Assembly: GCF_900094565.1 (NCBI RefSeq)
Contig: NZ_FMAF01000003.1
Location: 124,001-188,000 of the forward strand
DNA length: 64,000 nt
Source of the DNA: Martinezella lusitana
GTDB lineage: Bacteria > Pseudomonadota > Alphaproteobacteria > Rhizobiales > Rhizobiaceae
Direction of reading: 5' to 3'
Positions 37,834 to 41,112 of the stretch are shown piece by piece (the stretch's first letter is position 1; every line of letters begins with the position of its first letter). The position numbers and the translations under genes are program-made. Below the pieces are notes generated by a model. The model had not been told where the DNA came from and ran no database searches. It worked only from the letters and a program-made list of their open reading frames with translations.

Positions 37834-38745
37834 ATGGACCAGTTGTCAGCAATGCGGGCATTCGCGCGTGTGGTGGAAACGGGTAATTTTACCCGCGCCG
37901 CCGCGGCCCTCTCCATGCCGAAAGCGACGGTGACGACACTCATCCAGTCGCTTGAGGCGCATCTGCACGCCAAGCTTCTGAACCGGACGACCCGGCGCGT
38001 CATGGTGACGACCGACGGCGCGCTTTATTACGAGCGCGCCATTCAAATCCTCTCGGAAATCGAGGAACTGGACGGCAGCATCAGCAATTCGCAGAGCCTG
38101 CCGAGCGGCCGCCTGCGCGTCGAAATGGCCGGCGCCTTCGCCGAGAGGATCGTGATGCCGGCGCTCTGTGATTTCCACCAGCGCTATCCCGATATTCATA
38201 TCGACCTCGGTGTCGGTGACCGACTGGTGGACTATCTGGCCGAGAATGTCGACTGCGCCTTGCGCGCCGGCATGCCGAGCGACCAGTCGCTGATCGCCCG
38301 CCGCGTCGGCGAGATCCACTTCGTTACCTGCGCCGCGCCGCTTTATATTGAAAAGCACGGCATCCCGGAGCGCCCGGAAGAGCTGGAGACGGCTCACTAT
38401 GCGGTCAGCTATTTCCGCGCGCAAACGGGCCGTACTATCCCTTTCATCTTCGAACACGGCAACGAGTCGCTGGAAATCACCCCGCGCTACATCCTTTCGG
38501 TGAATGACAGCCGCAGCTACATCCAAGCGGCACTGACCGGGCTAGGCATCGCACAGGTTCCCAGCTTCATGGCCCGCGAGGCGCTTGCCAAGGGCGATCT
38601 GGTGCCCATCTTCACCGGCTGGACCCGGCCTGCGCTGCCCATGCACATCGTCTATCCGCCCAACCGGCACCTGAGCAACAAGGTGCGCGTTTTCGTCGAT
38701 TGGCTGGCGAAATTGCTGATCACCTCGCGGGTGGGAGAAGCCTGA
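37834..38745 (+). CDS. LysR family transcriptional regulator
   Basis: A 303-residue LysR regulator. The HTH contains NFTRAAAALSMPKATVTTLI (residues 20-39), a variant common in the CrgA/AaeR-like branch, followed by an effector domain (GRLRVEMAGAFAERIVMPAL). The ATG at 37834 follows GAGGGG; the longer frame to 37663 has no family features. It is divergent from the hydrolase and RND pump genes, so it may control efflux expression. Confidence 0.87.
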   Translation: MDQLSAMRAFARVVETGNFTRAAAALSMPKATVTTLIQSLEAHLHAKLLNRTTRRVMVTTDGALYYERAIQILSEIEELDGSISNSQSLPSGRLRVEMAGAFAERIVMPALCDFHQRYPDIHIDLGVGDRLVDYLAENVDCALRAGMPSDQSLIARRVGEIHFVTCAAPLYIEKHGIPERPEELETAHYAVSYFRAQTGRTIPFIFEHGNESLEITPRYILSVNDSRSYIQAALTGLGIAQVPSFMAREALAKGDLVPIFTGWTRPALPMHIVYPPNRHLSNKVRVFVDWLAKLLITSRVGEA

Positions 38746-38790
38746 GATAGCAAACTGCCTTCCCCTATTTGAGCAGGCAACCGTAAGCAC

Positions 38791-38810
38791 CTTCTCCCCG
38801 AGGGGAGAAG
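38791..38810. repeat. Short palindromic repeat
   Basis: CTTCTCCCC-GA-GGGGAGAAG in the spacer of two convergent genes. It matches the core of the hairpins at 60324-60476, so it appears to be a dispersed rhizobial palindrome; it could also assist transcription termination from either side. Confidence 0.6.
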
Positions 38811-38888
38811 AGTTGTGCGGCAACGATCCCACCTCATATACGATTGCTCTGCCTATCTGAGGGGAGAAGGCCAGGTTCTCGCGACCGC

Positions 38889-39347
38889 TCAGTTCCAGGA
38901 GGCTCCCGCCTGCTGGCGAACCGTTGCGTTCAACCGGTTCCAGACATTGTCGATCGCGATCGCAACGATCAGGGCGGACAGCGCCTTCTCGTCATAGTGT
39001 CGGGCAGCCTCGTTCCAGACCTCGTCGCTGACGGCATCCGGCCGGTCGGCAAGCCGGGTGACTGCCTCGCCGAGCGCAAGGGCCGCACGCTCGGCGTCCG
39101 AGAAATAGGGCATTTCTCGCCAGGCGGAGACCCCGACGATGCGCTCCATCGTTTCGCCCGCTTTCTGCAGCTTGCGAAAGCCCATGTCGGTGCAGACGCT
39201 GCAGCCGTTGATTTGGCTGATGCGCAGATGCACGAGGTCGATTGTGTTTTCAGAAAGGCCGCGATCCCTAATGGAAGCGCTGACGGCCAAAAGGGCCTGC
39301 AGTGTTTCCGGCAGGATGACGGCGGGGTTCTGCATACGAGCTTGCAT
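38889..39347 (-). CDS. Carboxymuconolactone decarboxylase/AhpD-like protein
   Basis: A 152-residue AhpD-fold protein with the redox pair CSVC (C49, C52), followed by the QKAGETM helix seen in alkylhydroperoxidase-like proteins. It is probably a peroxide- or thiol-linked enzyme rather than an aromatic-ring decarboxylase. The gene is divergent from an ECF41-type sigma factor, a pairing reported for this sigma group, and it has an ECF41-like promoter at 39453-39479 in its own direction. Confidence 0.88.
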   Translation of the reverse strand: MQARMQNPAVILPETLQALLAVSASIRDRGLSENTIDLVHLRISQINGCSVCTDMGFRKLQKAGETMERIVGVSAWREMPYFSDAERAALALGEAVTRLADRPDAVSDEVWNEAARHYDEKALSALIVAIAIDNVWNRLNATVRQQAGASWN

Positions 39348-39417
39348 GTTTTGTCCTCTGATTGTTCGGGCGCCACGATGGCCTCGATCTTGACGATGAA
39401 TTTTCCTGTCGATCTTG

Positions 39418-39444
39418 TGTCACACCGGCCGGACTGCATTCGTC
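39418..39444 (+). promoter_or_regulatory. ECF41-type promoter of the sigma factor gene
   Basis: TGTCACA at 39418-39424 and CGTC at 39441-39444 with a 16-base spacer, matching the ECF41 promoter consensus as I recall it from the literature. The -10 element lies 36 bases before the sigma gene ATG, so the gene is likely self-activating. Confidence 0.75.
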
Positions 39445-39452
39445 ATGGGTTT

Positions 39453-39479
39453 GACGGAACACGATGAGGAAATGTGACC
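39453..39479 (-). promoter_or_regulatory. ECF41-like promoter of the AhpD-like gene
   Basis: On the minus strand GGTCACA (39479-39473) and CGTC (39456-39453) are separated by 16 bases, one mismatch from the same consensus. It would give a leader of roughly 100 bases before the AhpD-like gene. It lies back to back with the plus-strand promoter and its -35 ends one base before the sigma ATG. Confidence 0.6.
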
Positions 39480-39480
39480 G

Positions 39481-40347
39481 ATGGACGGAAAAAACTGGCA
39501 GGCTGAAAAATTCGAGGCGAACCGGCCGCATCTGCGCGCCGTCGCCTACCGCATGCTCGGCTCGCGGACGGAGGCGGAAGATGCCGTGCAGGAAGCATGG
39601 CTCCGTCTCCTCAAGGCCGATAGGTCCGAAATCGAAAACCTCGGCGGCTGGCTGACGACGGTCACCGCACGCATCTGTCTCGATTTGCTGCGCGCCCGCA
39701 AATCGCGTCGCGAGGAGCCGTTGACGGTCCTCATCCCCGAGCCGGCAGTGCCCCACGAGGCCGAGCAGGATGCGCTGCTGGCCGATTCCGTCGGCCTTGC
39801 TTTATTGGTCGTTCTGGAGAAGCTCAACCCGGCAGAGCGACTTGCCTTCGTTCTGCATGACATGTTCGACGTGTCTTTTGATGACATCGCCCCGATCGTC
39901 GGGCGGACCACGGTTGCGACACGCCAGCTTGCAAGCCGCGCCCGCCATCGCGTGCAGGAAACGTCCGTCTCGATGGAAGCCGACCTCGCCCGCCAGCGGC
40001 ATGTCGTAGACGCTTTCTTCGCCGCCTCGCGCGGAGGCGACATGCACGCGCTGCTCGCCGTTCTCGATCCAGAGGCAGTCTTCCGCCCGGATGCCGTCGC
40101 GGCGCGTATGGGATCAGTCGGGGAAATCCGCGGGCGTGTCGACGTCGCCAAAACCTTCAACGGCCGCGCGCAGGCAGCCCGGCTCGCCGTCATCGATGGC
40201 GCGGTCGGCGCCATCGTGGTTATCGGTGGGCAGTTGCGTATCGCCCTACATTTCACCGTCAACGAAGACGGCATGGTCACGACCATCGATGCGATGGCCG
40301 ATCCGCAACAGCTGCGCAGGCTCGATATCGTGTTGATCGAGCCATGA
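39481..40347 (+). CDS. ECF RNA polymerase sigma factor, ECF41/SigJ-like
   Basis: A 288-residue sigma factor. Region 2 spans about residues 8-74 (AYRMLGSRTEAEDAVQEAWL), region 4 about 110-160 (FDDIAPIVGRTTVATRQLAS), and an extra SnoaL-like C-terminal domain runs from about 170 to 285. This layout is that of ECF41-type sigma factors, which lack a separate anti-sigma and are controlled by their own C-terminal domain. The expected DGGG motif is not evident (DAVAARMG at that place), so assignment to ECF41 versus a sister group is provisional. GAGGA precedes the ATG. Confidence 0.87.
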   Translation: MDGKNWQAEKFEANRPHLRAVAYRMLGSRTEAEDAVQEAWLRLLKADRSEIENLGGWLTTVTARICLDLLRARKSRREEPLTVLIPEPAVPHEAEQDALLADSVGLALLVVLEKLNPAERLAFVLHDMFDVSFDDIAPIVGRTTVATRQLASRARHRVQETSVSMEADLARQRHVVDAFFAASRGGDMHALLAVLDPEAVFRPDAVAARMGSVGEIRGRVDVAKTFNGRAQAARLAVIDGAVGAIVVIGGQLRIALHFTVNEDGMVTTIDAMADPQQLRRLDIVLIEP

Positions 40348-40350
40348 AAC

Positions 40351-41112
40351 CTATCGCATCTGTGTCGGGCTCGTGCCCGTCAGCCGGCGAAACATGGCGA
40401 TGAAGGCGGAGGCATTGCTGTAGCCCAGCTGCGATGCAATCCGATACACCGGCTCGCCGGCTTCGATCAGCGCCAGGGCTGCGACCAGCTTCAACCGCTG
40501 GCGCCATTCGTTGAAGGAAAGGCCGAGATCATCCTGGCATCGACGCGACAGCGTACGCTCGGTCGTCCCCATCCTGCGCGCCCATTCCGCCAGGGAGCGC
40601 CGATCGCCCGGATCGGCCTGCAACGCGCTGAGCACCGGGCCGAGCAATGGGTCGTCGGAAAGCGGCAGATAGCTTTCACAGCGTGGCGCCAGGCGGATCT
40701 GATCGACCAGAACCTGTGCGAGCCGCAAGTCCTCGGACGTTTCAGGCAAAGTGATATCCCGTGCCGCGAAATCCGCCAGGATCGCCTTCAGCAGCGGGCT
40801 GATGCTCAGCGTCGAAGGTTCGCCCGGCAGATCGGCGCAGAGGGCGCGCTCGACATAGACGGTCACATAGCGCAGGTCATGCCGGTTATGCGCCCCATGC
40901 ATCGTATCCGGCGGCAGCCAGATGGCGTAATGCGGCGGCGACAGATAGGGCACGCCCTGAATATCGAACTCACAAACGCCGACCAGCGCATAGTTGAGCT
41001 CACCCCACGGCTGGCTTTTCCTCGGAAAAACCGTGCCCGCTCTATAGTTCTCCGTCCGAAAGGAAACGGGGCGCGGCGGATCGCCCTCAATGCGTGGAAG
41101 CCTGTCCGGCAT
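40351..41112 (-). CDS. AraC family transcriptional regulator
   Basis: A 253-residue AraC/XylS regulator with an N-terminal cupin-type ligand domain (PHYAIWLPPDTMHGAH) and a C-terminal double HTH (LAEWARRMGTTERTLSRRCQ and IASQLGYSNASAFIAMFRRL). It ends 4 bases past the convergent sigma gene. It is divergent from the EamA transporter gene at 41253, which it probably regulates, much as NimR regulates its neighbouring exporter in E. coli. Confidence 0.88.
   Translation of the reverse strand: MPDRLPRIEGDPPRPVSFRTENYRAGTVFPRKSQPWGELNYALVGVCEFDIQGVPYLSPPHYAIWLPPDTMHGAHNRHDLRYVTVYVERALCADLPGEPSTLSISPLLKAILADFAARDITLPETSEDLRLAQVLVDQIRLAPRCESYLPLSDDPLLGPVLSALQADPGDRRSLAEWARRMGTTERTLSRRCQDDLGLSFNEWRQRLKLVAALALIEAGEPVYRIASQLGYSNASAFIAMFRRLTGTSPTQMR

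Follow-up and report, generated by a model that had tools for sequence, protein, structure and literature searches.

Can a single stretch of DNA act as the promoter of two divergent genes when one of them encodes the very sigma factor that would read it? This question is raised by a 62-bp near-palindrome (39418-39479) in the window, that is, the whole 64-kb stretch of DNA analysed here. The element lies between the gene for a SigJ/ECF41-like sigma factor and that for a carboxymuconolactone decarboxylase (CMD)/AhpD-like protein, and it reads TGTCACA, 16 bp, CGTC, 8 bp, GACG, 16 bp and TGTGACC. The answer that we favour, and consider likely, is that this element is one mutually exclusive two-way promoter, from which the ECF41-like sigma factor would fire both itself and the CMD enzyme.

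The element and the genes on either side

The sigma-directed promoter, on the plus strand, comprises a -35 element TGTCACA (39418-39424), a 16-bp spacer (39425-39440), and a -10 element CGTC (39441-39444). The CMD-directed promoter, on the minus strand, comprises a -35 element GGTCACA (39473-39479, TGTGACC on the plus strand) and a -10 element CGTC (39453-39456, GACG on the plus strand), and an 8-bp centre (39445-39452) separates the two -10 elements. An earlier note on this DNA had reported both motifs, each with an N16 spacing and the two interleaved within 62 bases, and its reading of their spacing and positions (39418-39444, 36 bases ahead of the sigma gene, and 39479 down to 39453, ahead of the CMD gene) proved right; the two together form the single near-palindrome. 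Its description of the layout as back-to-back has to be rejected for the window locus: the promoters are face-to-face, with the -10 elements inside, 8 bp apart, and the -35 elements outside, and they are superimposed although the genes are divergent. A back-to-back layout does exist in a relative from another class (L125, see below).

The ATG of the sigma gene is at 39481, 36 bases beyond the plus-strand CGTC, and is preceded by a Shine-Dalgarno-like GAGGA (39466-39470, plus strand). The minus-strand -35 element sits between this GAGGA and the ATG; it had been said to touch the start codon and it nearly does, ending one base short of it. The CMD gene has a Shine-Dalgarno-like AGAGGA (39354-39359, minus strand). 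Within the sigma leader, 39472-39477 read AUGUGA, a start codon followed by a stop, which is partly made by the minus -35 element and which lies just 5' of the true AUG.

The sigma gene (39481-40347, plus strand) encodes a protein of 288 aa, identified by profile and structure searches as a sigma factor with a fused SnoaL-like C-terminal domain. Regions 2 and 4 are present (Pfam Sigma70_r2, 6.3e-16; Sigma70_r4_2, 1.7e-7), and the C-terminal extension matches SnoaL_2 with an E-value of 0.0023 and 18.9 bits versus a cut-off of 27. The structure predicted from 22 input sequences has a mean pLDDT of 76.8, with blocks of 79-95 from residue 171 onward. A Foldseek search with this model, the whole-chain TM of which is low (0.36) so that the placement of the domains is unsure, gave SigJ (5xe7, 1.3e-14) at the top along with SigG1 (7qh5), followed by hits that included ketosteroid isomerases and other NTF2-like folds. 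According to the model, therefore, the extension of about 100 aa would have the SnoaL-like fold that characterizes ECF41 sigma factors. SnoaL-bearing sigma factors are also listed in groups ECF56, ECF205, ECF294, and ECF295 (PMC8999054). The nearest solved structure is that of M. tuberculosis SigJ (5xe7, 1.5e-38). The best named family is NCBIfam SigJ (NF007214), with a score of 244.1 bits versus a cut-off of 271 bits, and the protein is therefore filed as ECF41-like rather than as a strict member of ECF41. The linker motif WLPEP is partly kept (LIPEP in the window's sigma factor), and several palindrome-bearing relatives lack PEP. The ECF41-type assignment of the earlier note thus stands in the looser form of SigJ/ECF41-like. 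The genome contains one strong SigJ-type gene, the next match scoring 51 bits versus 243.

The CMD gene (38889-39347, minus strand; 152 aa) was identified by profile searches; its product matches carboxymuconolactone decarboxylase/AhpD-like proteins (2.8e-15) and has a CxxC motif (CSVC). The window locus therefore possesses two further hallmarks of ECF41 systems, namely, a COE partner gene (a CMD with CxxC) and a TGTCACA-N16+/-1-CGTC promoter, and comparison supports the claim that the promoter motif is of the ECF41 type.

Frequency and conservation of the paired motif

A loose version of the motif (GTCAC, 16-18 bases, CGTC) has three occurrences in the window, two of them on the plus strand (7414 and 39418) and one on the minus strand (39479); the strict version has one plus-strand occurrence. 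Genome-wide, TGTCACA-N15/17-CGTC is found at 10 places, as compared with about 11 expected by simple arithmetic and one for a reversed-pattern control; a lone motif is therefore weak evidence either way. Eight of the 10 places were fetched: one is that of the window, and the other seven are without a match to the sigma factor or to the CMD. A crude scan for open reading frames puts five of these seven within open frames that are 150 aa or longer; the strict motif in L006 lies outside any such frame and has just a 91-aa frame 301 bases further on. In L008 (the window's own genome, contig C45, about 1501-1527), TGTCACA-N16-CGTC stands 36 bases before an open reading frame of 326 aa that matches a Pfam solute-binding protein. 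This motif could be a second target of the sigma factor or else the site of an unrelated regulator; given L008, it is possible that the sigma factor has at least one target beyond the window locus.

The pair of motifs was sought with a strict pattern that allows any inner gap from 0 to 30 and that passes over variants such as L038 and L124. In overlapping samples of genomes, this pattern matched in 3 of 385 from the class, 15 of 397 from the order, and 14 of 151 from the family. The matches correspond to 29 distinct places, 24 with a gap of 8 and five with gaps of 0, 15, 17, 22, and 24. All 24 of the gap-8 places lie between a sigma gene and a CMD gene, and none of the four other-gap places that were fetched, out of five, has both genes. 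Paired elements in this geometry are far beyond chance, and a chance origin is rejected on the strength of these 24 places and of the retention of the geometry in the relatives described next.

The search for relatives yielded 359 confirmed places, and the following counts concern the best 80 of these 359, the loci being related to one another. The sigma-directed motif, with its GTCAC core rightly spaced from CGTC, is present in 80 of 80, and the whole palindrome is present in 70 of 80, with an inner gap of 8 in 68 and of 9 in two. In all 70 palindromes, an A directly follows CGTC on both strands, which corresponds to the first A and last T of the centre. In 71 of the 80, the start of a divergent CMD gene lies at a distance of 108-172 bp upstream of the sigma match; the palindrome is found in 70 of these 71 and in none of the nine relatives without an adjacent CMD gene. 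The exception among the 71 is L038, in which the divergent CMD gene is present and the minus -35 element carries one substitution (GTTCACA); the minus -10 element of L124 reads CGTT, and both cases count against a two-way promoter. The alignment of the spacer across related loci, which the earlier note had called for, thus shows that both elements are conserved and that each tracks the gene that it faces. In L104 (G661, from the window's genus), the sigma gene matches in two separate frames and may be broken; the palindrome and the CMD gene are present there.

One explanation for such an arrangement would be that the shortness of the intergenic region has by chance brought two independent divergent promoters into overlap, without regulatory meaning. 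The intergenic space is indeed compact, and the separate back-to-back promoters of L125 show that divergence needs no overlap. However, there is room for the promoters to lie elsewhere: in the 24 gap-8 places, the distance from the palindrome to the CMD start ranges from 37 to 92 bp; the gap is 8 or 9 in 70 of 70 palindromes among the relatives; and the back-to-back arrangement (-35 to -35, 0-30 bp) occurs in 0 of the 151 family genomes. Accidental overlap is therefore rather unlikely in our judgment.

Information content was calculated over 70 rows of equal length, comprising the window and 69 loci, with the two gap-9 loci and the nine loci without an adjacent CMD gene set aside. The mean is 1.93 bits for the plus -35 element, 2.00 for the plus -10, 2.00 for the minus -10, and 1.74 for the minus -35, versus 1.20 elsewhere. 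The relatives yield only 20 rows, the window included, with less than 85% identity over 86 bp, and in these, the corresponding means are 1.89 for the plus -35, 2.00 and 2.00 for the -10 elements, 1.73 for the minus -35, and 1.07 elsewhere. The first base of the minus -35 element (39479) varies, being C in 50% of the 70 rows. The plus spacer (CGGCCGGGTTTCGTT in most relatives) is conserved above most other flanking positions, its CGGCCGG..TTCGTT portion unusually so, and this is also the case in L088, which has no minus promoter. Such conservation exceeds what a spacer should show and counts against a two-way promoter. Moreover, the distance from the promoter to the sigma ATG is near-constant among the relatives as well, so the fixed inner gap is not a fully independent constraint.

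Separated, co-directional, and other divergent pairs

The best evidence that both arms work, as far as sequence can indicate it, comes from loci where the genes have parted and each appears to have kept the arm facing it. These are eight loci (L067, L070, L072-L074, L082, L084, and L085) forming a Rhizobium clade in which the CMD gene is not adjacent to the sigma gene. A quick tree built from 54 chosen rows places this clade within the palindrome-bearing loci, with SH-aLRT values of 99 for the clade and 98 for the fork uniting it with six rows that have the palindrome. In five of the loci, 1.7-1.9 kb separate the CMD gene from the sigma gene, and in the other three, there is no CMD match within the stretch fetched. 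Next to the sigma gene, the sigma-directed promoter is retained and the GTGAC of the minus -35 element is gone in eight of eight. Next to the separated CMD gene, CGTCACA-N16-CGTC directed toward this gene is retained in the five of five seen, and the sigma-directed promoter is disrupted: there is no TGTCACA-like sequence 16 bp from CGTC, and an apparent remnant of the -35 element, recognized by eye, is just 9-10 bp away from it. Of the nine loci without a CMD neighbour, the remaining one, L088 (its record titled a Chloroflexi MAG), possesses just the sigma-directed promoter.

In L067, L070, and L072-L074, two minus-strand open frames separate the CMD and sigma genes and are flanked on both sides by a copy of the promoter region; by eye, these frames resemble a HAD phosphatase and a RibD/DHFR-like protein.

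These loci bear on the suggestion that the sigma-directed promoter alone is real, that the minus elements arise incidentally from constraints acting on the sigma leader (its Shine-Dalgarno sequence and start codon), and that the CMD promoter is elsewhere. The position of the minus -35 element between the sigma Shine-Dalgarno sequence and the ATG fits this suggestion, as does the departure of the minus motif from TGTCACA at the variable base 39479. Against it, the sigma leader of the separated loci retains its start codon and loses GTGAC all the same, the moved CMD gene takes the minus promoter along with it, and the minus promoter is kept in none of the nine loci without an adjacent CMD gene, which makes this by far too strained an account for us to give it much credence. 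The related idea that the minus element aids the translation of the sigma gene is rejected on the same loss of GTGAC with retention of the start codon.

Co-directional CMD-sigma pairs form a separate clade in the tree, which does not include RpoE9 itself among its rows. Among the places fetched, there are 14 distinct pairs (L150 repeats L137, and loci without a CMD match, namely L130, L139, L140, L142, and L151-L153, are outside the count); 11 have a CMD-directed motif, and 0 of 14 have an opposing face-to-face element, the one relaxed match in L137 falling outside the geometry. In L128, L137, L143, and L144, the sigma gene comes first, with a motif of its own, and the CMD gene follows downstream.

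Another question concerns the partner -10 element, which outlasts the partner -35 element in the separated loci: TGACG is in place in six of the eight sigma copies, displaced in L072, and lost in L073, and CGTCA is retained in five of five separated CMD copies. This decay is slower than a two-way promoter needs, and the centre might have another role. It could be that a dimeric regulator controls both genes with the inner dyad, TTCGTCA-N6-TGACGGAA, as its operator, the resemblance to ECF41 promoters being secondary. The persistence of most of these -10 relics is in keeping with such an operator, as is the CGTCA/TGACG symmetry found in 70 of 70 palindromes. However, the outer GTCAC elements, which keep a spacing of exactly N16, almost equal the dyad in conservation; the co-directional relatives have the identical -35/-10 pair without an opposing half; and in S. 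meliloti, the motif of RpoE9 stands 9 nt before a mapped start (PMC3616915). An operator is therefore improbable, and a two-way promoter remains the reading that we prefer.

Divergent pairs further afield have other layouts. L125, which belongs to a different class within the phylum, has two separated back-to-back promoters; among the matches listed for 229 genomes of its class, no sigma factor other than its own exceeded 38% identity over at least 200 residues. The Actinobacteria were sampled through three Streptomyces plasmids only. In L146 (NZ_CP108782.1, a Streptomyces plasmid), a sigma relative with 64% identity over 198 aa adjoins a divergent CMD gene, and there is a CMD-directed promoter alone, with its -35 element one base from the sigma GTG. 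L145 has a divergent gene for an NAD(P)H-binding protein with one relaxed motif (-10 TGTC) directed toward this gene, L147 has a single relaxed motif directed toward the sigma gene, and neither has a face-to-face pair. Since L125 and L146 are divergent and lack the palindrome, divergence neither requires the palindrome nor automatically yields it.

Predicted start sites and comparison with known systems

The distance of 9 nt from CGTC to the start in S. meliloti is matched in the table of PMC6180224, where the sequence ends 9 nt beyond CGTC. If it applies to the window, the sigma mRNA would start at 39453 (G, plus strand), which is also the first base of the minus -10 element as read on the plus strand, and would have a 28-nt leader; the CMD mRNA would start at 39444 (the G opposite C39444, minus strand) and would have a 97-nt leader. 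With a gap of 8, each predicted +1 G therefore belongs to the base pair in which the partner's CGTC has its final C. The bubble of an open complex extends from about -11 to +2. Bubbles computed from the predicted starts cover 39442-39454 and 39443-39455, which are nearly identical stretches of DNA.

The following mechanism may be proposed. Holoenzyme with the ECF41-like sigma factor would bind the near-palindrome in either orientation; polymerase facing right would transcribe the sigma gene, giving positive autoregulation, and polymerase facing left would transcribe the gene for the CMD/AhpD-like enzyme. Since each open complex would melt nearly the same 12-13 bp, with one bubble in common, the two orientations would exclude each other. 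With 62 bp between the outer edges of the -35 elements, the geometry, as read from the DNA, implies steric interference, and two polymerases would not be expected on the element at once. The output of regulator and enzyme would rise together in a ratio set by the strengths of the two promoters, and the positive feedback would be capped as sigma- and enzyme-directed firing compete for a single site. For a holoenzyme level S and dissociation constants K1 and K2, the arithmetic of competition for one site gives an output ratio of K2/K1 at any S, whereas that of two independent promoters gives a drift toward equal occupancy at saturation; control of the ratio and self-limiting feedback would thus be expected on arithmetic grounds. 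Around the gene pair (38700-40500), no sigma-70-like promoter for the basal synthesis of the sigma factor was found.

A more specific, and more tentative, proposal is that the element is a ratio-locking device, with one melting site entered from either side, in which the gap of 8 has been selected because each -10 element supplies the +1 G of its partner; we lean somewhat against it. If it were true, the ratio of regulator to enzyme would be constant at all levels of activation, the positive feedback would limit itself, and the separated Rhizobium loci, with opposite arms silenced, would amount to a natural experiment in which the device has been undone.

How does the window locus compare with known systems? 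Wecke et al. 2012 (PMC3426412) described ECF41 sigma factors with COE partners and listed 55 divergent pairs in their Table 4; a motif precedes the ECF gene in 36 of them and the COE gene in 41. The window locus resembles these systems in having sigma2-sigma4, a large C-terminal extension, a CMD partner with CxxC, and the TGTCACA-N16+/-1-CGTC motif; unlike the window, both of the ECF41 loci tested in that paper have the promoter before the COE gene. No overlap of the divergent motifs was found described in its main text, where the one overlap mentioned concerns coding genes. The window locus suggests that a part of the divergent pairs in that table could each have one two-way promoter. S. meliloti RpoE9 (ECF41)/SMb20029 shares the promoter motif and the CMD target (PMC6180224, PMC3616915) but has its genes in a co-directional operon behind a single promoter.

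It is established that sigma-70 can use bidirectional promoters (Warman et al. 2026, PMC12825309), and the likeness extends to pseudo-symmetric DNA, two orientations of polymerase, and the exclusion of one by the binding of the other, which here is predicted. Spacings of 18, 10, and 23 bp between start sites are common in that study, and the 9-bp spacing predicted for the window is close to the 10-bp class. The promoters of PMC12825309 use the E. coli housekeeping sigma factor and share a -10 element; the window has a strict two-part promoter for an alternative sigma factor, with two complete -35/-10 pairs whose -10 elements are separate and a fixed 8 bp apart, and one of its arms points to the gene of the regulator itself. 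The predicted bubbles coincide, and the -10 motif itself is not shared. The bidirectional promoters tested in E. coli were too weak at the basal level to compete and did compete once one direction was strongly activated (PMC12825309); by analogy, an activated pair of ECF promoters is plausibly a case with competition under strong activation. In P. syringae, holoenzyme with the ECF sigma factor HrpL, bound at the divergent target promoter of hrpL/hrpJ, occludes its own gene (PMC5263251). The window would resemble this in that an ECF holoenzyme at a divergent target promoter is predicted to affect the transcription of its own gene; it differs in that hrpL uses sigma-54, which makes for negative feedback on another type of promoter, and the accessible text of PMC5263251 describes no ECF palindrome.

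A superimposed, palindromic two-way ECF promoter with a fixed gap was not found described in the literature searched, subscription papers and supplements lying outside the search. In 24 genomes sampled from the window's order and in 70 of the 80 relatives, the symmetric site is retained nearly base for base, and it offers a clean system in which to study how mutual exclusion shapes positive feedback, with the separated Rhizobium loci as a ready natural control. Promoters that work in both directions are known, as are divergent pairs with ECF41 motifs; what the searched literature was not found to describe is the fixed face-to-face geometry of the ECF elements.
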